Both the position numbers and the translations under genes were made by a program. The notes under the pieces were generated by a model, which saw only the letters and a program-made list of their open reading frames with translations, ran no database searches and had not been told where the DNA came from. Below, in pieces: positions 16,333-50,258 of a stretch of 64,000 bases of DNA; positions within the stretch are counted from its first letter, which is position 1, and the number at the start of each line of letters is the position of its first letter. This DNA is from Sediminihaliea albiluteola (GTDB taxonomy: Bacteria > Pseudomonadota > Gammaproteobacteria > Pseudomonadales > Halieaceae). The stretch is from positions 186,001 through 250,000 of the forward strand of contig NZ_JACFXU010000013.1 of NCBI RefSeq assembly GCF_014077625.1, written 5' to 3'.

Positions 16333-18543
<2,211 letters not shown>

Positions 18544-39941: not shown

Positions 39942-40940
39942 ATGACGCAGCCTGCGCTTCAGACAGAGCTGTTGGCCTCATTTGAGCCACTGCTTGGGCT
40001 ACTTCGTGATGAGTTAGTGGCGGCTGATATCGCGCCACCAGCTGGGCCACCACAGAATTTAGCAGCCTTCACTCGCTGGTACCTCGATGCAGTTCAGTTA
40101 CTCGAGCAGCAAGTGACTCGCGACGAAGGTGAAGCATCGATGGCTAGGGATGCGGTTGAGATGATGTGTCGCAGCGCCCTAACTGCCCCGGACTTGGCTT
40201 CGGCGATTGATATATGCTGCCGCTTTAGCGCCATGCTTTATCCTCGTGCCGGTCAATTGAGCTTGTTGATTAAGGGCGATACAGCGCTGCTGCAACTTGA
40301 CTCTCTGCGCCTGCGAACAACTACCGCAAGTAGCTTGGTGGACATTACCGGTTTGTTTGCTTATCGGCAGTTATTACAGTGGCTGTCAGGGCGGGAGCTG
40401 CCCCTGCAGCAGGTGTTTATCGGCCCGATTGTGAGAGAGAACGTACTGCCATTTCTCAAGTTGTTTCGGGCACCTGTATTGTCCGGTGGCGAGCACTATG
40501 CATTGGTTTTTGATCGCAGGGCTATGAGCTGGCCCTGTGTGCGCAGTGGCAGTGAATTCCCCGCATTTTTTCAGGGCTTTCCCTGCGCGGTCTTTGGCCT
40601 GCACAGCGGGGATTTGAGCGAGCAGGTAAGCGCTTTGCTGAGCGCCGCTTTGGAGCGTGGCCGTGGCTTGCCCACGCAAGCTGAGATCGCCGCTACTTTA
40701 GAGATACCGCTATCCACCCTGCGCCGCCGCTTGCGTGAACGCGGCAGCAGTTTTCGCCTGCTGCGTGAGCAGTGTTTGAAGGAGGCTGCCACTAAGCTCT
40801 TACAGCGCCGGGAGTTGAGCGTCGGGCAGGTTGCTAGTCACTTGGGCTTTAGTGATAGCGCTGCCTTTCGGCGCGCCTTTCACCAGTGGTTTGCCTGCGC
40901 ACCGCTGAAGTGGCGGCAAGCTCAGCAGTTAGCAGAGTAA
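39942..40940 (+). CDS. AraC-family transcriptional regulator (arabinose-binding-type N domain)
   Basis: A 332-residue regulator. The N-terminal 200 or so residues fit the arabinose-binding-type domain of VirS/OruR-like regulators. The C-terminal double helix-turn-helix is clear: EIAATLEIPLSTLRRRLRE then SVGQVASHLGFSDSAAFRRAF and FACAPLKWR. An AGGAGA site precedes ATG 39942. It is divergent from the Baeyer-Villiger monooxygenase, the same arrangement as Mycobacterium virS-mymA, so it most likely activates that gene in response to a small ligand. The ligand is unknown. Confidence 0.92.
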   Translation: MTQPALQTELLASFEPLLGLLRDELVAADIAPPAGPPQNLAAFTRWYLDAVQLLEQQVTRDEGEASMARDAVEMMCRSALTAPDLASAIDICCRFSAMLYPRAGQLSLLIKGDTALLQLDSLRLRTTTASSLVDITGLFAYRQLLQWLSGRELPLQQVFIGPIVRENVLPFLKLFRAPVLSGGEHYALVFDRRAMSWPCVRSGSEFPAFFQGFPCAVFGLHSGDLSEQVSALLSAALERGRGLPTQAEIAATLEIPLSTLRRRLRERGSSFRLLREQCLKEAATKLLQRRELSVGQVASHLGFSDSAAFRRAFHQWFACAPLKWRQAQQLAE

Positions 40941-42098: not shown

Positions 42099-42926
42099 AT
42101 GCGTAAAGTGACCACTGAAGTGTTAGCTGATGGCCTGACCTTTCCGGAGGGCCCTCGCTGGCGAGATGGCAAGCTTTGGTTCTCAGATTTCTATACTTAC
42201 GGGGTCTACAGCCTGAGCTTAGAGGGCGTGTTAGAGCGTCAGCTTGAGGTAGTCAATCGTCCATCTGGGCTCGGTTGGACGCCTGATGGTAAGTTACTCG
42301 TGGTTTCCATGATGGATCGCAAATTGCTGCAGTGGGATGGTGATACGCTCACTGAGTTGGCTGATTTATCAGGTCTTGCCGCAGGGCACTGCAATGATAT
42401 GTTGGTCTGCCCCGATGGCACGGCTTTCGTAGGGCACTTTGGCTACGACCTGTTTGGCGGAGAAGCGTTTAGAGAAGCTTCCCTGATTCGGGTGCGTCCT
42501 GGTGCCGAGCCTGAACTAGCCGCTGATGCCATGGCCTTTCCCAATGGCGCTGTGCTTTGCGACCAAGGGCGCACTTTAGTGGTGGCAGAGACCTTCACTA
42601 AGCAGTTGACCGCCTTTAATTTAGGGGCAGATGCGAGCTTGTCTGAGCGCCGAGTGTGGGCTGATTTAGGGGGCCGCCTTCCGGACGGTATCTGCCTCGA
42701 CGCAGAGGGTGGGATTTGGGTTGCCGCACCGGGCACTGGTCTTATTCGGGTAGAAGGGGGTGGCAAGATAAGCCACGAGCTCAGTTTAAGCCAAGACTGC
42801 TATGCCTGTGCGATAAGCGATGACGGCAACTCACTCTTAGTCTGTACCTCGGCTCATACCGCAGCAGCCGATTGTGAGAAATATAGAAGCGGTCGCATCG
42901 AGCGGGTCGACCTTAAAGCTCTGTAA
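42099..42926 (+). CDS. SMP-30/gluconolactonase-like protein
   Basis: A 275-residue six-bladed beta-propeller hydrolase of the SMP-30/LRE family, which opens sugar and other lactones with a divalent metal. The family start LTFPEGPRWRDGKLWFSDF supplies the first metal ligand Glu. CNDMLVCPDGTAFVGHFG supplies Asn and Asp ligands, and LPDGICLDAEGGIWVAAPGTG the Asp of the active site. No signal peptide is seen, so it is likely cytosolic. Given the monooxygenase 2 kb away, which would make esters or lactones, a role in ring opening is possible. It converges with the DegT-like gene. Confidence 0.9.
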   Translation: MRKVTTEVLADGLTFPEGPRWRDGKLWFSDFYTYGVYSLSLEGVLERQLEVVNRPSGLGWTPDGKLLVVSMMDRKLLQWDGDTLTELADLSGLAAGHCNDMLVCPDGTAFVGHFGYDLFGGEAFREASLIRVRPGAEPELAADAMAFPNGAVLCDQGRTLVVAETFTKQLTAFNLGADASLSERRVWADLGGRLPDGICLDAEGGIWVAAPGTGLIRVEGGGKISHELSLSQDCYACAISDDGNSLLVCTSAHTAAADCEKYRSGRIERVDLKAL

Positions 42927-42961: not shown

Positions 42962-44227
42962 TCAAGAGCGTGCCGGCGCCCCGGGAACGGCTGCGGGTTT
43001 GCCATCGGCTTCAATAAATTCCCTCAGCACCTGTTGTACATAGGCGCAGTCATCTTCTGTCATAGTGGGGTGGCAGGGCAGCATCACACCGTTCTCCATA
43101 ATCTGATCGCAGTTGCCAAGGCCGGCTTCGTGTACCCGGTATTCCCTCCCTTGCAGCATCGGGTGACGAGTGATGTTGCCGGAGAAAATCACCCGGGAAA
43201 ATACCCCGCTGTCTTCTAAATGCATCTGCAGGCGTTTGCGACTCCAGCCAGTGCTAGGATGGATCTGTATGGGGAAACACAGCCAGGTTGTCTCGGTCTC
43301 TGGCAACAGCCGCGGGACGATGAACTGCTCAGGGTAGTCGGCGAAAAATTCATAGTAGCGCTGAAAGCGGTCGTTGCGTTTTTGCCACAGCTCATCAATG
43401 CGCTCCATTTGGGCAATACCAAAAGCTGCGCCAGCTTCATTGGGAATAAAGCCGTAAGCAAGGTCTTCAAAGATAAACAGAGAATCGTAATCCACGCCGT
43501 CAAGCTGCTCTAAAAAGCGACCATCGCTCTCGGCTACTTTGCTGCCAAACATGTATTTTTCTGAGGAGCGGCCCCAAGCGCGCAAACTCAATGCCCGATC
43601 GAGGTAGGCCTCATCGTCAAAGAACACCATACCGCCATTACCTAAGGCGGTGATAATGTGAAATATCGAGAAGCTAGTAATAGAAATGTCTGCGCGTGTT
43701 GCCGTTTTGCGCCCGCGTAGTGTGCCGCCTAAAGTGTCCGCGGAGTCGTGGATCACTAATAGATCATGCCGATCGGCGATCTCGCGCACTTTATCCCAAT
43801 CACAAATGCCACCGATTAAATCGGGGATTAGAATGGCCCGAGTATCTTCGCCAATGGCTTGTTCTATTCGATCCACTTGTATTTGGTAATCATCAAGTCC
43901 CACGTCAATGAACACTGGGCGATAACCCGCTTGATAGATGCTAGCGACGTCAGTAGAAAAGGTCAGCGCAGGAGTAATAACTTCGCTGCCGCTGGGGAGG
44001 TTGGCAAGACGCATGGCAATTAACAGCGCCGAAGACCCGGAGTTAACCATCACCCCGTGGCGTTTGCCCATAAACTGGGCGACGATTTGTTCAAACTCGC
44101 AAACTTTTTTACCCGGCACCATGCCCATTGGGTCGGCTAATACCGCATTCACTGCATCAATTTCTTCTTGACCATAGGCGGCGCCACCGTAGCGCACAAC
44201 GCGCGGGCTGAGTGTTTTGTTCTTCAT
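42962..44227 (-). CDS. DegT/DnrJ-fold PLP enzyme with His replacing the catalytic Lys (sugar 3-dehydratase-like)
   Basis: A 421-residue fold-type-I PLP protein of the DegT/DnrJ/EryC1/StrS family. NSGSSALLIAMRL (phosphate and substrate region) and HDSADTLGG (Asp161, contacting the pyridine nitrogen) are normal. The lysine that forms the Schiff base in aminotransferases lies in an S-F-x-x-x-K context; here the segment is SFSIFHIITALGNGG and the position is His190 (codon CAC). His at this site is known in the 3-dehydratases ColD and E1 (RfbH/AscC). The region after it (AWGRSSEKYMFGSK, 217-230) corresponds to the E1 iron-sulfur loop, but all cysteines there are missing. It is therefore probably not an aminotransferase; a dehydratase or a non-catalytic relative are the options. 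Confidence 0.85.
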   Translation of the reverse strand: MKNKTLSPRVVRYGGAAYGQEEIDAVNAVLADPMGMVPGKKVCEFEQIVAQFMGKRHGVMVNSGSSALLIAMRLANLPSGSEVITPALTFSTDVASIYQAGYRPVFIDVGLDDYQIQVDRIEQAIGEDTRAILIPDLIGGICDWDKVREIADRHDLLVIHDSADTLGGTLRGRKTATRADISITSFSIFHIITALGNGGMVFFDDEAYLDRALSLRAWGRSSEKYMFGSKVAESDGRFLEQLDGVDYDSLFIFEDLAYGFIPNEAGAAFGIAQMERIDELWQKRNDRFQRYYEFFADYPEQFIVPRLLPETETTWLCFPIQIHPSTGWSRKRLQMHLEDSGVFSRVIFSGNITRHPMLQGREYRVHEAGLGNCDQIMENGVMLPCHPTMTEDDCAYVQQVLREFIEADGKPAAVPGAPARS

Positions 44228-44651
44228 TGCTTGGCTTATCCTTATAAGTAATGGTGCTTTGTGAGCTTAGCTAAAAAATAGAAGCATGTAGCTCAGTGCT
44301 TTGACATAGCTTCACTGGCGACAGTGAAACAATCTAAGCGGCAGTTCAACAAATCGGTCTGGCGTATTGACCTCAGTTGGCTGCAGTTCTACTGTCCTAA
44401 GGATAAGCTAGAGAGTAGGGTGGTTTAGTCAGGGCTGCAGTGTCGCAGAGTGGCGCTGGCGGATATTAAGGGTCTGCTTGCACTTCGCCAACCTGATACA
44501 CAACCACTTCTTAGCCTTTGCTCCATCTCCCGGCAGTGGTTATTAGCTTATGCGATATTGATAGAGTGCTTAGCTCGGCGGGAGCTTGTCGCTGCCGAGT
44601 GCTTCCGCGTATCCTTTGCGGCCCTACTAGAGTTTGGTATGAGAATGCATA
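44228..44651. other. 424-nt intergenic region before the SLC13 transporter
   Basis: The gap separates the divergent DegT-like gene and SLC13 transporter. It contains an 18-bp palindrome (44311-44328) and a short open frame of 69 codons (44450-44659, GTG start). That frame has no clear ribosome site or recognisable family, and it overlaps the transporter start by 8 nt. I do not call the frame a gene. Nothing else is seen. Confidence 0.55.
44311..44328. promoter_or_regulatory. 18-bp palindrome TTCACTG-GCGA-CAGTGAA
   Basis: Two perfect 7-nt arms are separated by GCGA. A TTGACA hexamer lies just upstream (44301-44306). It could be an operator for a dimeric repressor or, as RNA, a hairpin capped by a GNRA tetraloop. 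No function is assigned. Confidence 0.4.
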
Positions 44652-46376
44652 ATGATTGACCAGCTGTTGATTTCAGGCCTGTTTCTGATTTTGTTGGGCA
44701 GTTTGATCTTCAGCGATTGGTCCGCTACGAATATTTTCGTGGGCGTTATGTTGGTAGCTTATTTCCTCGGTTTAGTTAGCACTAACGATGTGCTGTCCAA
44801 AGCCACCAACAATGGTCTGGTTACCTTGGTACTGTTGTTGCTGGTGTCAGTCGGGCTAGAGAAGTTATCCTGGCTAAATCGCCTGTCTGGCAAGCTGATC
44901 ACGCCCGGCTTTACCGCTAGCCTGCTTCGCTTAGGGGCTGTGACAGCCCTGTTTTCGGCTTTTGTGAACAATACGGCAGTGGTGGCAACCCTTGCCCAAA
45001 CCGTGCGTAATAACCGCCATCACCCGGCCTCTCGTCTACTCATTCCCTTGTCTTACGCGGCGATTTTAGGGGGCACTATGACCCTGATCGGCACCTCTAC
45101 TAACTTGATCGTCAGTAGTTTTTTGGAAGACGCGACAGGGCAGGGCTTAGCATTTTTTGATTTTCTTATCGTCGGCGGCAGTGCCACCGTGCTTGGATTG
45201 CTGGTCATGCTTGGCGCTTCGCGGCTCTTGCCCACTGACAGTGCCGAGAAGGTCGATGTCAATGAGTACGTGATCGAAGCCGAGGTCGGGGCGGAGTCCT
45301 CCCTGGTCGGTCGCACGATTGCTGAGAACCGCTTGCGCGATCTAGAGGCGCTGTTCTTAGTAGAAATTGTGCGTGATGAGCACATGATCTCGCCAGTCGC
45401 GCCGAGCGAATATATCGAGGCTGGTGACAAGCTGATTTTCTCTGGCGACATCACACAGGTCAGTGCCCTCGATGCCTTTGATGGCCTGCATCTGTTTGCG
45501 GTGGATGAAGGCTTGTTGCGAGAAAACATGATGGAAGTCATTGTCATGCCCAGTGCGACTATTGAGGGCAAGACTATTAAAGACAGTGGCTTCCGCTCTT
45601 TGTTTGATGCGGCAGTGGTTGGCATGAGCCGCGGTGGTAAGCGTTTATCGGGCAAGCTGGGGAACATTACCATCCAAGCCGGTGATAAATTGATGCTAGC
45701 CACGGGGCCCGACTTTCACGACCGCAATAACCTCGGCAAAAACTTCGTGGTGATCGATGATACGGTCAACGGAGCAAGCACTACGCCGCTACAGAACTGG
45801 TTTGTCAGTATTACCTTGCTGGCAGTAGTGGTGCTGGCCTCGATAGAGCAGCTGCCTCTCATCACGGGCCTGGCCTTTCTTTTGGTCTGCATGCTTGGCC
45901 TGAAGCTAATCCGTGCCTCAGAGCTGCGCCGCCGCTTTCCTTTTGAGATTTGGTTGATTATCGCCTCTGCCTTGACCCTCTCTCAGGCTTTAACCAACTC
46001 CGGACTGGTCGCAATAGTGGCTGACGGCCTGCACCATCATTTAGCGGTATTAGGGCCCTATGCGGCCCTGGCAGGTATTTATTTGGGAACTTTGCTGCTG
46101 ACAGAGTTGATGACCAATAATGCCGCTGCCGCACTGAGCTTTCCCATCGCTTTTGGGCTGGCGGAGAGCTTTGGTTTGAGTCACATGCCTTTTGTGATGG
46201 CAGTTGCCTACGGTGCTAGTGCTAGCTTCTTGACGCCCTATGGTTACACCACCAACCTTATGGTGCAGAACTTGGGAGGCTATGCGCTGCGAGATTATGT
46301 GCGCAGTGGTCTTCCCTTGTCGATCACTTACTCACTGGTGGTATTGACCATGCTGCCTTGGGTCTTTCCTTTCTGA
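44652..46376 (+). CDS. SLC13/DASS-family permease with paired RCK_C (TrkA-C) domains
   Basis: A 574-residue inner-membrane transporter of the divalent-anion:sodium symporter type. The N-terminal half has several helices and the two conserved re-entrant motifs around FVNNTAVVATLAQTV and GGTMTLIGTSTNLIV. A cytosolic insert from about residue 205 to 375 holds two RCK_C/TrkA-C domains (for example EAGDKLIFSGDI and QAGDKLMLATGP). The C-terminal half repeats the motif as LMTNNAAAALSFPIAFG and TPYGYTTNLMV. This architecture is common in bacterial transporters of dicarboxylates or sulfate; the substrate is not determined. ATG 44652 has only a weak ribosome site. Confidence 0.92.
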   Translation: MIDQLLISGLFLILLGSLIFSDWSATNIFVGVMLVAYFLGLVSTNDVLSKATNNGLVTLVLLLLVSVGLEKLSWLNRLSGKLITPGFTASLLRLGAVTALFSAFVNNTAVVATLAQTVRNNRHHPASRLLIPLSYAAILGGTMTLIGTSTNLIVSSFLEDATGQGLAFFDFLIVGGSATVLGLLVMLGASRLLPTDSAEKVDVNEYVIEAEVGAESSLVGRTIAENRLRDLEALFLVEIVRDEHMISPVAPSEYIEAGDKLIFSGDITQVSALDAFDGLHLFAVDEGLLRENMMEVIVMPSATIEGKTIKDSGFRSLFDAAVVGMSRGGKRLSGKLGNITIQAGDKLMLATGPDFHDRNNLGKNFVVIDDTVNGASTTPLQNWFVSITLLAVVVLASIEQLPLITGLAFLLVCMLGLKLIRASELRRRFPFEIWLIIASALTLSQALTNSGLVAIVADGLHHHLAVLGPYAALAGIYLGTLLLTELMTNNAAAALSFPIAFGLAESFGLSHMPFVMAVAYGASASFLTPYGYTTNLMVQNLGGYALRDYVRSGLPLSITYSLVVLTMLPWVFPF

Positions 46377-46502: not shown

Positions 46503-47492
46503 TTAAAAATCTTCAGTGTAGAACTGGGCGTACCATTTGCGGAATTTAGCAAAGGGGCCGTCGTTGTCACAGAGCAGTGGTTTCTCGAAGTACTGCTTGC
46601 GCTCCCAGATGATGATGTCTTCTTCCATCTGTTTGTGGATATCGGCAACGATCGCATCGGCGACACCGCCAACGGGCTCTTTACCGTCCACTTTTTTCTG
46701 AATAAAGGCGTAAAACGCTTTGCTGTTCTCGCGGTCGACCGGCGTCAGGTTAGCCATCAGAACTGTGTCACAAATGCCACTGAAGCGCACAGTTGCCTGT
46801 CCTGGGCCAGTGCTGGCATTAGCGATAACACCATTGACATCGCCTTTGGGAGTTTTCAGCTTGCTGACAAAGCGACCAGAGCGGTGGATGCCATCGAAAA
46901 CCACGTCTTCGGGAGTAGGAATATCCTTGGTGCCGTGTACATAGAGGAAGTGTGCCGCATCAACAGCGTTTTCACCGACTTCCTGGGTGTGCGTAGGAAT
47001 GTCCCATGTTTTGATCTTGAAGGAGCCCCAATCGTCGTTATCGGCCGCCGCTTCAGGCACTACGTCAGGCTCAAAGGTCGGGTCGATGTTGTCCGGGTGG
47101 TACCAGACAAAAATGCACTGGTTCAGTTCGCGGACATGCCAGGGGCGAATAACTTCTTCACAGCGCGCGACTTTGGGCGGTAGGTTGGTGGCGTAGGGGA
47201 CATCGGTACATTTGCCTTCGCCGTTATAGGCCCAGCCGTGGAAGGGGCAGATAACTGAGTCGCCTTTCACTTCGGCGCCGCCACCGGCTTTGCCGCGGAT
47301 ACCATAGCCTAAGTGTGCTCCCATATGTGGGCAGTATGCATCGAGCACTTTAGCCTCACCGGATTCAGTGCGGAACATGACCAGATCGGTGTCAAAGTAG
47401 CGCAGGGGCACTGACTCATCGGATGTGAGCTCGTGGGAGTAGGCGACCTGGAACCAGCCGAAAGGGATGGGCATTGGAATGCGATTGCTCAT
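46503..47492 (-). CDS. Rieske non-heme iron oxygenase, oxygenase component
   Basis: A 329-residue oxygenase subunit. The Rieske [2Fe-2S] ligands are C54/H56 (CPHMGAHLG) and C82/H85 (CPFHGWAYN). The mononuclear iron site is in ENAVDAAHFLYVHG, with D178, H181 and H186 as bridging Asp and His ligands. The size and the AAHFLYVHG form resemble the KshA-like group that hydroxylates steroids and other alicyclic substrates, not aromatic-ring dioxygenase alpha subunits. The reductase partner is not encoded nearby. ATG 47492 starts MSNRIPMPIPFGWF. It is divergent from the SDR/NTF2/OYE operon, suggesting a shared control region at 47493-47738. Confidence 0.92.
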   Translation of the reverse strand: MSNRIPMPIPFGWFQVAYSHELTSDESVPLRYFDTDLVMFRTESGEAKVLDAYCPHMGAHLGYGIRGKAGGGAEVKGDSVICPFHGWAYNGEGKCTDVPYATNLPPKVARCEEVIRPWHVRELNQCIFVWYHPDNIDPTFEPDVVPEAAADNDDWGSFKIKTWDIPTHTQEVGENAVDAAHFLYVHGTKDIPTPEDVVFDGIHRSGRFVSKLKTPKGDVNGVIANASTGPGQATVRFSGICDTVLMANLTPVDRENSKAFYAFIQKKVDGKEPVGGVADAIVADIHKQMEEDIIIWERKQYFEKPLLCDNDGPFAKFRKWYAQFYTEDF

Positions 47493-47738
47493 GGTATAGT
47501 GACCTCGATCAATTGTGTGAATCGTAAACGAACACTTTAAGACAGAGTGCCTGTCAATGTAATGACTTGCAAAAACTGTGTGCTTCGTTACTCGCGTAAA
47601 TAGCTATACTCTCGGTGATTAATGCCTTAGGCAGCCCGAGTTACAAGGATATGCAAGCCTAGCTTTGTTGACCCACCTACAGGCGGCGCCTAAGCTCTGC
47701 AGTCCTTAGATAGCAACCCATTATAGTGGAGAAATAGG

Positions 47739-48509
47739 ATGAGATTGCAGGATAAAGTGGCCATTGTCACCGGCTCAAGCCAGGGCATTGGCGCGGCAAC
47801 CGCGCTGCGTTTGGCTCAAGAGGGTGCTCGCGTGGTACTGGCAGCCCGGCGCTTGGAAGAATTGCAAAGTGTGGTCGATCAAATTGAGTCTGCTGGCGGC
47901 ACCGCCATGGCTCATGTTACCGATATTACCAACGAAGATGCGGTCAAGGCCTTGGTTGAGGCGACTGTAGCGGCTTACGGGCGCTTAGATATCGTGGTGA
48001 ATAACGCTGTGCTGATGGTGCCTGGCATGCTGAAAAACCACGATACTAAGGCCTGGCGTCAAAACTTCATTGTATCGCTCGATGGCGCCATGTTCTTGAT
48101 GCGTGAAGCCTACCCACAGCTGAGCAAAAACCAAGGCTCAGTAGTTAACGTGTCCTCAGTTTGTGGTCTTAAGGGCTCTCCAGCGACGGCTGGCTACTCC
48201 GCGGCTAAGGCGGCGATGCTAGGCTTGTCGCGTAATGCGGCGATCGAATGGGGTGGTAAGGTTCGAGTGAACACGGTGATCCCAGGTGCCTTCTTGACCC
48301 CTCCTACAGCAGCGGTGTTGCCCGATGAGGCTGCTCAGGAAGCCACTGCTCGCTCTATTCCAATTAAGCGTATTGGCGACCCTATGGAGTGTGCTAACGC
48401 AATTCTGTTCTTGGCCAGTGACGAGGCCTCCTACATTACCGGCGCTGAGTTAGTGGTAGATGGTGGGCGCACCGCGGAGCTAAATACTGGTACAGCGAGC
48501 TGGGACTAA
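47739..48509 (+). CDS. SDR-family oxidoreductase (first gene of the SDR-NTF2-OYE operon)
   Basis: A 256-residue classical SDR. TGSSQGIG is the cofactor motif, and ARRLEELQ after the second strand carries arginines that suggest NADP. NNAVLM takes the NNAG position, and the catalytic residues are the serine in VNVSSVCG with Y153 and K157 (YSAAK). It ends in the family-typical GAELVVDGGRTAEL. ATG 47739 follows a GGAGAAATAGG site. The next gene starts 3 nt after its stop, so the three genes to 50258 are one operon. The substrate is unknown. Confidence 0.91.
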   Translation: MRLQDKVAIVTGSSQGIGAATALRLAQEGARVVLAARRLEELQSVVDQIESAGGTAMAHVTDITNEDAVKALVEATVAAYGRLDIVVNNAVLMVPGMLKNHDTKAWRQNFIVSLDGAMFLMREAYPQLSKNQGSVVNVSSVCGLKGSPATAGYSAAKAAMLGLSRNAAIEWGGKVRVNTVIPGAFLTPPTAAVLPDEAAQEATARSIPIKRIGDPMECANAILFLASDEASYITGAELVVDGGRTAELNTGTASWD

Positions 48510-48512
48510 GCT

Positions 48513-49154
48513 ATGACTGATTCACAACTACTTGCCCGTATTGACCGTTTAGAGTCGCTGGATGAAATTCGTCAGCTCGCGGCCAAATACTCCCTGTCCT
48601 TGGACATGCGTGACCTCGATGCTCACGTGAACTTGTTTGCCCACGACATCAGAGTAAGTCGCGATAAAACGGGTCGCGAGCACCTCAAGCACTGGCTGGA
48701 TGATACCTTGCGCCTGCAGTTCACTGGCACTTCTCACCACATAGGTAATCACATTATTGAGTTCGATGATCCAGATCACGCTCACGGTGTGGTGTATTCC
48801 AAGAATGAGCATGAAACCCCCTGTGCCAATGGCGATACGGAGTGGGTCATCATGCAGATGTTGTACTGGGATAACTACGAGCGCATCGATGGTCGCTGGT
48901 ACTTCCGGCGTCGTCTGCCCTGCTATTGGTATGCGACTGATCTGAACAAGCCGCCGATTGGCGACAACAAGATGCGCTGGCCTGACCGCGAGCAATATGA
49001 AGGGGCTTTTCACGCCCTGTGGCCCTCGTGGCATGAATTCTGGGACAATCCCCCGGGTGACAATGTGGCTGAAGTCGCAGCCCCGGCTCCTATAGACGAG
49101 TTCCTTAAGACAATGCGGCGCGATGCTGCTGAACCCAAAATTCGAGTGCGCTAG
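48513..49154 (+). CDS. SnoaL_4-type NTF2-like protein
   Basis: A 213-residue protein with one NTF2-like cone fold. It has the N-terminal helix pattern LESLDEIRQLAAKYSLSLDMRD, which is typical of the SnoaL_4 group often encoded with SDRs and ring-degrading enzymes, then HHIGNHIIEFDDPDHAHGVVYS and the strand YERIDGRWYFRRR. The tail from about residue 150 is Trp-rich and specific to this subgroup. Known relatives include dehydratases and isomerases, for example of steroid or bile-acid routes, but the reaction here is not decided. The start lies 3 nt after the SDR stop. Confidence 0.85.
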   Translation: MTDSQLLARIDRLESLDEIRQLAAKYSLSLDMRDLDAHVNLFAHDIRVSRDKTGREHLKHWLDDTLRLQFTGTSHHIGNHIIEFDDPDHAHGVVYSKNEHETPCANGDTEWVIMQMLYWDNYERIDGRWYFRRRLPCYWYATDLNKPPIGDNKMRWPDREQYEGAFHALWPSWHEFWDNPPGDNVAEVAAPAPIDEFLKTMRRDAAEPKIRVR

Positions 49155-49178
49155 CACTAACGCAGGAAAATAGAACAG

Positions 49179-50258
49179 ATGGATTTATTTAGTCCCGTAA
49201 AACTGGGTGAGTTATCACTCTCTAATCGTATTATTATGGCCCCAATGACGCGCAGCCGCGCGGATACCGATGGCGTACCGACCCCTGAAATGGTCGAATA
49301 CTATCGCCAGCGCGCTAGCGCCGGCATGATTATTAGTGAAGGTATTGCCCCAAGCGCAGATGGTTTGGGCTATTGCCGAACACCCGGTATATACAACGAG
49401 CAGCAAGTGGCAGCTTGGCGCGAAGTCTGTGACGCCGTTCACGCGGCAGGTGGTCGTATCACCGCTCAGCTGATGCACGTAGGCCGAGTGGCCAGCGCAT
49501 TGAATAAGCCAGCCGGTAGCGAAACCGTGGCGCCATCAGCGATCCAGGCCAAGGCTAAAATGTTTACCGACCAACAGGGCATGCAGCAGATGGAAATGCC
49601 CCGTGAACTGAAGCTAGAAGAAATTCCTAGCATTATTGAGGAGTACCGACAGGCGACGGAGAATGCCTTTGCCGCAGGTTTTGACGCGGTTGAATTGCAC
49701 TGCACCAGTGGTTACTTGCCAGCGCAATTCCTCAGCACTGGTACTAACCAGCGTCAGGATAGCTACGGTGGCTCGGTCGAGAATCGAGCGCGCTTTGTGT
49801 TGGAGGCCCTAGAGGCCATGTCCAGCGTTGGCGGCAGCGCTAAAGTGGGCATGCGTATTTGCCCAGATAACCCCTTCAACGATCTCTCCGACGAAGACCC
49901 ACAGGCCACCTTCGATTATTTACTTAGCGAAGCCGCTAAGCTGGACTTGGCTTATCTGCACGTTATTCGCATGCCTACTGGGCGGGTAGATAATATCGCA
50001 TTGGCCAAGCGCTACTTTGGTGACCGAGTCATTGCCAACGAGAGCTTCAGCTTTGACGAAGCACAAAAAGTGGTATCGGCGGGCGAAATTGCTGCGGTGT
50101 CATTTGGTCGTCCCTTCATCGCCAACCCTGATTTGGTTGAGCGTTGGCGCAGTGGGGCGTCATTAGCGGAGTTTGACCTAGCCACTATGTACACCCCGGG
50201 TCCCGAAGGCTATACCTCCTACCCAACACTGCAGGAAGAAGAGCGCGCTGGCGCTTAA
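49179..50258 (+). CDS. Old Yellow Enzyme-family NADH:flavin oxidoreductase
   Basis: A 359-residue FMN ene-reductase. The N-terminal NRIIMAPMTRSRAD and the loop RITAQLMHVGRVA are typical. The substrate-anion pair is normally His-x-x-Asn or His-x-x-His before GYL. Here it reads HCTSGYLPAQFLS, giving H174 with S177, while the proton-donor Tyr (Y179) is kept. SYGGSVENRARF and the C-terminal FMN-phosphate block AAVSFGRPFIANPDLVERW are present. It is the third gene of the SDR-NTF2-OYE operon, 24 nt after the previous stop. The substitution suggests an altered substrate pocket. Confidence 0.91.
   Translation: MDLFSPVKLGELSLSNRIIMAPMTRSRADTDGVPTPEMVEYYRQRASAGMIISEGIAPSADGLGYCRTPGIYNEQQVAAWREVCDAVHAAGGRITAQLMHVGRVASALNKPAGSETVAPSAIQAKAKMFTDQQGMQQMEMPRELKLEEIPSIIEEYRQATENAFAAGFDAVELHCTSGYLPAQFLSTGTNQRQDSYGGSVENRARFVLEALEAMSSVGGSAKVGMRICPDNPFNDLSDEDPQATFDYLLSEAAKLDLAYLHVIRMPTGRVDNIALAKRYFGDRVIANESFSFDEAQKVVSAGEIAAVSFGRPFIANPDLVERWRSGASLAEFDLATMYTPGPEGYTSYPTLQEEERAGA

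Follow-up and report, generated by a model that had tools for sequence, protein, structure and literature searches.

What does a DegT-family protein do when it has neither the lysine that binds pyridoxal 5'-phosphate (PLP) in aminotransferases nor the cysteines that hold the iron-sulfur cluster of the 3-dehydratase E1? The question is raised by a gene in a 64,000-nucleotide stretch of the Sediminihaliea albiluteola genome (contig NZ_JACFXU010000013.1, positions 186,001–250,000; hereafter the window). The gene lies on the minus strand at 42962..44227, has an ATG start, and codes for an intact DegT-fold, 3-dehydratase-like protein of 421 amino acids (P0001) with histidine at position 190 and a cysteine-free loop. 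The protein matches Pfam PF01041 in the fold sense (270 bits, gathering cut-off 19.8), and its top NCBIfam model is RfbH (NF011936), at 268.4 bits and below the cut-off of 423. In the passage of PMC8987622 that covers them, E1, ColD, and SpnQ are named as three well-characterised 3-dehydratases, with E1 and SpnQ needing a [2Fe-2S] cluster and a reductase. All three are described there as forming a Schiff base between pyridoxamine 5'-phosphate (PMP) and a 4-keto sugar, after which the C4' proton is abstracted by the histidine that stands in for lysine, and the hydroxyl at C3 departs. For ColD, the same passage describes release of the enamine, its hydrolysis, and the restoration of PMP by glutamate (PMC8987622). 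A ColD-type enzyme from C. jejuni is described as assayed with added PLP and glutamate (PMC10440746).

An alignment of 56 proteins was constructed with 18 W-type, seven B-type, two actinobacterial (ACT), and 13 CDP-type (sugar) proteins, four E1, four ColD, and eight aminotransferases. The W type is made up of the window protein and relatives that are 72–82% identical to it. Identity to the window protein is 55–60% for the B type, 44–46% for ACT (47–48% by tblastn), and 37–43% for the CDP type. Codon 190 (43658..43660, minus strand) is CAC and puts histidine at the Schiff-base lysine position of aminotransferases. The open reading frame (ORF), the codon, and the alignment therefore confirm what a preliminary description of this DNA had claimed, namely a DegT-family protein with His190 at the PLP-lysine position. 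Histidine fills this column in 40/40 members of the protein's own clade (W, B, ACT, and CDP), 4/4 E1, and 4/4 ColD, against lysine in 8/8 aminotransferases. Because the column is kept throughout the clade, His190 is not a chance substitution, and loss of the lysine by accident in one genome was rejected. No lysine of the window protein stands in the Schiff-base column, and a lysine elsewhere serving at that position was likewise rejected by the alignment. Asp161 (43745..43747, minus strand), which we take to pair with the pyridine nitrogen as in the DegT fold generally, occurs in 56/56 rows. Asp161, Ser185, His190, and Arg345 are each present in 40/40 clade members; Arg345 is also found in 4/4 E1 and 4/4 ColD and in 0/8 aminotransferases, and lies in a stretch common to 3-dehydratases (residues 342–358, VFSRVIFSGNITRHPML; 43154..43204, minus strand).

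Residues 213–245 (43493..43591, minus strand) form an E1-type loop following the active site, in which model confidence is low at 221–240. This loop has no cysteine in 40/40 clade members and three or four in 4/4 E1 references. Cysteines of the window protein occur only at 43, 142, 317, 373, 385, and 394, none of them within 215–245, and residues 216–230 read RAWGRSSEKYMFGSK. The preliminary reading of an E1-like loop at 216–230 without cysteine from 215 to 245 is thus borne out, as is that of YGFIPNEAG at residues 258–266 (43430..43456, minus strand), which includes Gly259. A second cluster built from other cysteines was rejected, since only C317 and C385 are invariant across the W and B types. 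Codon 224 (43556..43558, minus strand) is lysine in 25/25 W and B proteins, in a column that is cysteine in 4/4 E1 rows. Position 163, which from the E1 motif and cysteine spacing we take to be the column of the fourth cluster cysteine, is alanine in the window protein and alanine or cysteine across the clade. It is cysteine in 4/4 ColD and so does not track the cluster. Codon 93 (43949..43951, minus strand) is aspartate in 27/27 W, B, and ACT proteins, and threonine or serine in 21/21 E1, ColD, and CDP-type rows.

A tree was constructed with IQ-TREE (LG+C20 with posterior mean site frequencies), without the split gene of genome G427 (L074, L075) and with long branches flagged. A branch supported at 100/100 splits the 40 clade members from all other rows, and E1 (100/99), ColD (100/100), and aminotransferases (100/100) form separate groups. 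W, B, and ACT together (27 proteins including the window protein) are supported at 100/98 and the W type at 100/100; the B type is weak as a single group (73/31). Twelve of the 13 CDP-type rows group at 91/96; the other, L050, has a long branch and joins the window side (89/71), so the CDP type is not a clean clade. Constraining the 40 to group with E1 cost 1.67 log units (approximately unbiased test, p 0.306), so the tree does not distinguish a place nearer E1 from one nearer ColD. Judged by alignment and tree, the window protein belongs to a cysteine-free, 3-dehydratase-like branch without a name, apart from E1, ColD, and aminotransferases. The preliminary description had offered a new subgroup of 3-dehydratase as one possibility and an alignment and tree as the way to check it. 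That possibility is upheld as far as sequence, tree, and fold go, by the 100/100 clade, the 3-dehydratase histidine, and Arg345, with no lysine at the Schiff-base position and the clade set apart from aminotransferases. The branch also supplies sequences for asking whether the E1 cluster was gained or lost.

The nearest solved proteins by sequence are E1 (3bcx, E 1.2e-51) and then ColD (2gms, 5e-37). An AlphaFold2 model of the window protein was built from 38 sequences and has a mean predicted local distance difference test score of 90.3 and a predicted template modelling score of 0.90; it is weakest at the termini and at residues 221–250. The top Foldseek match for the model is E1 (5.8e-38). 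VIA-align gave Z 51.6 for E1, with a root-mean-square deviation of 2.0 over 385 residues, and Z 48.7–49.6 for ColD.

The window protein resembles E1/RfbH/AscC (CDP-4-keto-6-deoxyglucose 3-dehydrase, PDB 3BCX) in fold, sequence (30–32% identity), catalytic histidine, and post-active-site loop, and it has Arg345 and the R..F.GN.TR.P stretch. Unlike E1, whose [2Fe-2S] cluster is bound by four cysteines around the PMP, it has none in 213–245 and alanine at 163; it also lies in its own clade, reaches 268 of the 423 bits set for the RfbH model, and has no rfbF-rfbG in the window. Fold, histidine, and absence of iron-sulfur ligands are shared with ColD (GDP-4-keto-6-deoxymannose 3-dehydratase, PDB 2GMS and 3B8X), but identity is 26%, the loop is of the longer E1 kind, and ColD is a separate 100/100 clade. 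Additionally, neither gmd nor a GDP-fucose/colitose synthase gene adjoins the window gene; gmd and an fcl-like gene occur on another contig. The DegT/DnrJ/EryC1/StrS aminotransferases (lysine in 8/8) differ in having the internal-aldimine lysine where the window protein has His190. By its residues and clade, the protein is not E1 (cluster cysteines), not ColD (clade), and not an aminotransferase. With His190 present and the loop cysteines absent, only the ColD course is open among those described, and the protein is likely to work like ColD.

Relatives of the CDP type stand in nucleotide-sugar loci. Homologs of both rfbF and rfbG were found within the fetched stretch in 12 of 13 such loci, and the thirteenth (L050) adjoins rmlA- and rmlB-like genes. 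A CDP-glucose 4,6-dehydratase was above cut-off in seven of the eight CDP-type genomes searched. On plasmids of Palleronia (L080), Leisingera (L081), and Labrenzia (L082) the annotated genes are rfbF, rfbG, the cysteine-free gene, an S-adenosylmethionine methyltransferase, an NAD(P) oxidoreductase, and glycosyltransferases. (Plasmid records gave 73 matches at E ≤ 1e-30, of which 12 were taken for analysis together with one E. coli region.) In Azospirillum, the slot after rfbF-rfbG is held by a cysteine-bearing RfbH. Since the cysteine-free CDP-type proteins occupy the slot of RfbH, they resemble natural iron-free replacements of E1, and the 12 that adjoin rfbF-rfbG look like stand-ins that would act without iron. 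The absence of iron-sulfur ligands therefore characterises a large clade rather than the window protein alone. The proteins behind rfbF-rfbG in Palleronia, Leisingera, Labrenzia, and Ensifer (L079) share the histidine and cysteine-free loop and, of the sugar-type relatives whose hosts are named, come closest to the window protein (~41–45% identity by tblastn); unlike it, they sit in CDP-hexose cassettes and keep T93, N140, N259, and Y187. Among the matches listed, and leaving W and B aside, the named relative closest to the window protein is WP_030003097.1 of Rhodococcus erythropolis R138 (L076; 48% by tblastn), which has D93 and no rfbF-rfbG nearby but keeps N140 and N259 and lacks K224. From a natural cysteine-free branch in the E1 gene position of CDP cassettes one would expect CDP-3,6-dideoxysugars to be reachable by a simple route driven by glutamate. 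Recombinant E1/E3 is described as having failed to work in one group's hands, with the clusters blamed as the probable cause (PMC7851689).

Selection on the clade was estimated as dN/dS (the ratio of nonsynonymous to synonymous substitution rates) by the Nei-Gojobori method. Values were 0.013–0.083 in 12 W- or B-type pairs and 0.161 in a CDP-type pair (L078/L079). In three pairs that include the window gene itself, dS was saturated (pN 0.12–0.14, pS 0.76–0.90). Purifying selection acts strongly on the window-type proteins.

The window protein is probably an active, PMP- and glutamate-dependent, ColD-like 3-dehydratase of the nucleotide-sugar group that would work without iron and is altered at D93, G140, S187, and G259. 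We infer its cofactor state, reaction, substrate, and use of glutamate as reductant. The enzyme would be dimeric by analogy and would work in the manner of ColD on an E1-like scaffold. PMP would be held without an internal lysine aldimine and would condense with a ketone substrate to a ketimine, His190 would remove the C4' proton of PMP, and the neighbouring hydroxyl would depart. The enamine would then be released and hydrolysed, glutamate would convert PLP back to PMP, and neither an iron-sulfur cluster nor a reductase would be required. The stand-alone clade of W, B, and ACT would have moved out of the sugar cassettes and altered positions at which the known enzymes do not vary. From that exit and those changes it would follow that the substrate is either a nucleotide 4-keto-6-deoxysugar made at a distant locus or a different, catabolic alpha-hydroxyketone.

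Several observations weigh against a ColD-like dehydratase of the nucleotide-sugar group. GDP-perosamine synthase, an aminotransferase, nearly equals the dehydratases by fold alone (Z 48.6); with a gap of only 1 between it and ColD, fold alone cannot tell dehydratase from aminotransferase, and residues and tree do so. At three sites that vary little or not at all among E1, ColD, and the CDP type, W and B have other residues (N140G, N259G, Y/F187S). Position 140 is glycine in 25/25 W and B proteins and asparagine in 21/21 E1, ColD, and CDP rows and 2/2 ACT. Position 259 is likewise glycine in 25/25, against asparagine in 12/13 CDP, 4/4 E1, 4/4 ColD, and 2/2 ACT, and position 187 is serine in 25/25, against tyrosine in CDP and E1 and phenylalanine in ColD. 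In 6/7 B-type proteins the signature is altered in its GN.xR part, to GH and leucine. We infer from their sequence positions that the altered sites lie in the pocket. The changes at 140, 187, and 259 may make cofactor or substrate binding different, and together with that at 93 they argue for an altered substrate or an altered grip on it. Homologs of seven sugar-gene references (rfbF, rfbG, rmlA, rmlB, RmlC-like, NAD-epimerase, and thiamine pyrophosphate enzyme; tblastn, E ≤ 1e-25) were found in the flanks of 0/26 window-type and 0/2 actinobacterial loci, an absence that is valid for the stretches scanned, which ranged from almost nothing at contig ends to ~10 kb. Finally, one carrier genome (G218; 95% complete, so that a gene could be missed) had no RmlB match at E ≤ 1e-30 and neither Gmd nor CDP-glucose 4,6-dehydratase above cut-off.

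Loss of the lysine and lack of a conserved operon would also fit a PLP-fold protein without catalysis, binding or regulatory in role, as the preliminary description had allowed. This is highly unlikely, because the active-site aspartate, serine, histidine, and arginine are kept in 40/40, dN/dS is only 0.01–0.08 in 12 pairs, and E1 and ColD, as PMC8987622 describes them, are catalytic with histidine for lysine. The invariance of K224 (25/25 W and B, in the column of an E1 loop cysteine) could instead point to an aminotransferase in which it substitutes for the usual lysine, a reading that we consider close to untenable: K224 lies 34 residues past the usual position, in the loop that is least certain in the model, and is absent in the ACT and CDP types, which share the histidine. 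More plausible, although still tentative, is a narrower form of the ColD-like reading, in which the product of an ordinary, unlinked deoxysugar gene receives a standard dTDP- or GDP-4-keto-6-deoxy sugar in trans and turns it into a 3,6-dideoxysugar destined for the cell surface. The window's own genome (G000) has rmlD-, rmlB-, rmlC-, and rmlA-like genes together on contig C9, and on the same contig gmd followed by a GDP-fucose-synthase-like (fcl-like) gene (all recognised by eye except rmlB and gmd), and the relative L050 adjoins rmlA- and rmlB-like genes. RmlB was above cut-off in 9/10 window-type carriers, but this says little, because it was also above cut-off in 10/14 control genomes, and in G000 it is part of a rhamnose-type locus. 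Gmd was above cut-off in only 3/10 carriers, and G218 lacks an RmlB match, as noted. CDP-glucose 4,6-dehydratase (0/10, including G000) and PseB (0/10) were above cut-off in no carrier, and none of these four 4,6-dehydratase kinds is common to all 10. Supply by a PseB-type enzyme was accordingly rejected, and a colitose role by way of gmd is not general. No glycosyltransferase cassette was seen beside the gene among the ORFs inspected (L064–L075 in part), and D93, G140, and G259 stand at sites that are fixed in sugar enzymes.

The other form of the ColD-like reading, in which the protein is a degradation enzyme whose PMP chemistry strips a hydroxyl beside a ketone in a non-nucleotide compound (steroid, terpenoid, or cyclitol), is doubtful. 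Genes around various window-type loci are consistent with it (by eye unless annotated): acyl-CoA ligases (L035, L069), in L033 and L064 a downstream KstD-like flavoprotein (with a 4-base overlap in L033), a P450 (L041), SDRs in several loci, TonB receptors, AraC-type regulators as immediate divergent neighbours (L038, L039, L040), and TetR genes (L037, L070, L071). In the window itself, KshA-type Rieske, SnoaL-like, and OYE genes lie 2–6 kb away. Actinobacterial relatives show a similar setting, with annotated VOC and TetR genes upstream in R. erythropolis R138 (L076) and, by eye, a VOC-like ORF, a hydrolase, and an acyl-CoA ligase (AMP-ligase) near the gene in Embleya. Against this, clustering of neighbours over 27 rows (26 genes, one split across two contigs) gave loose themes only and no conserved operon partner, and carrier genomes seem rich in such genes. 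SDRs made up 8/51 adjacent versus 21/344 other ORFs (p 0.02, loci non-independent), a weak enrichment and a weak lead. We know of no hydroxyl removal from non-nucleotide compounds in the DegT-fold 3-dehydratase family, which also counts against a degradation role, and a literature search over titles and abstract beginnings, weak because of its limited coverage, returned no cysteine-free E1 and no 3-dehydratase outside sugar synthesis. A fuller version is more doubtful still, and we offer it as speculation: W, B, and ACT might represent a PMP-dependent dehydroxylase recruited from nucleotide-sugar synthesis into catabolism, where it would use glutamate to remove the hydroxyl beside the ketone of compounds related to steroids, terpenoids, or cyclitols; its active site would be a rebuilt one (D93; G140, S187, and G259 in W and B), with K224 at an E1 iron-sulfur ligand site in W and B. 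If the substrate is not a nucleotide sugar, the stand-alone branch would extend the chemistry of the family beyond sugars.

The gene is preceded by AAGGA, a possible ribosome-binding site 11 nucleotides ahead of the ATG (44239..44243, minus strand). Its convergent neighbour codes for an SMP-30/gluconolactonase-like protein (42099..42926, plus strand; Pfam PF08450), and its divergent neighbour for a CitMHS-type anion transporter with TrkA_C domains (44652..46376, plus strand), of which L033 and L064 also carry a homolog nearby. These are the lactonase and anion transporter of the preliminary description. AraC (39942..40940, plus strand) and FKBP genes flank the window gene at one end, and KshA-type Rieske, SDR, SnoaL-like, and OYE genes at its other end. 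The gene is unusually placed, away from sugar genes and near degradation-like genes. The preliminary statement that no lipopolysaccharide or deoxysugar genes are near stands in so far as the seven sugar references had no homolog in the 64-kb window (tblastn, E ≤ 1e-25); it needs the qualification that a KdsA-like gene was recognised by eye ~26 kb away.

The KdsA-like gene (16375–17226) lies between CTP-synthase-like and enolase-like genes and is the only lipopolysaccharide-related gene recognised in the window. The KshA-type Rieske oxygenase, SDR, SnoaL-like, and OYE genes are consecutive at 46503–50258 and may form a steroid or terpenoid degradation group. The annotation of R. erythropolis plasmid pLRE138 places iolC, a Gfo/Idh/MocA oxidoreductase, and a sugar phosphate isomerase/epimerase at L076:1243-4459, 7–11 kb from the 3-dehydratase-like gene. 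In genus g27 the gene stands between hydroxyacid-dehydrogenase-like and RimK-like genes (L065–L068) or some genes away, by a TetR-like gene (L037, L071), an apparent local relocation.

Window-type genes were searched for in several genome sets, each of which includes the window's own genome. They were found in 9/58 genomes of the relatives search and in 19/140 genomes of the family (E ≤ 1e-60). The class sample gave 9/369, the others being one window-type gene (60%) and seven genes at 40–43%, and the phylum sample gave 1/398, the window's own. Within G000 the single match to the window protein at E ≤ 1e-3 is itself, so no DegT aminotransferase is close enough to appear. Loci L002–L010, L021–L028, and L051–L063 either repeat genes that longer loci already cover or had no further use in the analysis. 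A metagenome-assembled genome labelled Deltaproteobacteria (L032, JAJDAQ010000161.1) has a W-type gene (73%) inside the otherwise gammaproteobacterial W clade, which could reflect transfer across phyla or a binning error or contamination. G015 has two W-type copies (L035, L036) in dissimilar neighbourhoods, and G026 has a gmd-like stretch with several stop codons (G026:C11:86595-87337), apparently a decayed copy.

Related genes also occur on viral contigs. Phage records gave seven matches to the window protein at only 29–30% identity. From 80 viral loci retained out of 574, 33 (in the range L089–L162) were put in the model alignment and 26 were scanned for sugar genes. Histidine is at column 190 in 33/33, and the loop has three or four cysteines in 16 and none in 17, so that both types are present on viral contigs. 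Among the 26 scanned, which are of mixed types and in some cases have short flanks, rfbF and rfbG were found together in seven and not in 19. Cysteine-free histidine 3-dehydratase-like genes occur among phage-structural-like ORFs on three IMG/VR contigs (L100:5989-7254, L091:3484-4701, and L098:2436-3662), and on each of these a small glycosyltransferase-like ORF adjoins the gene (both by eye).

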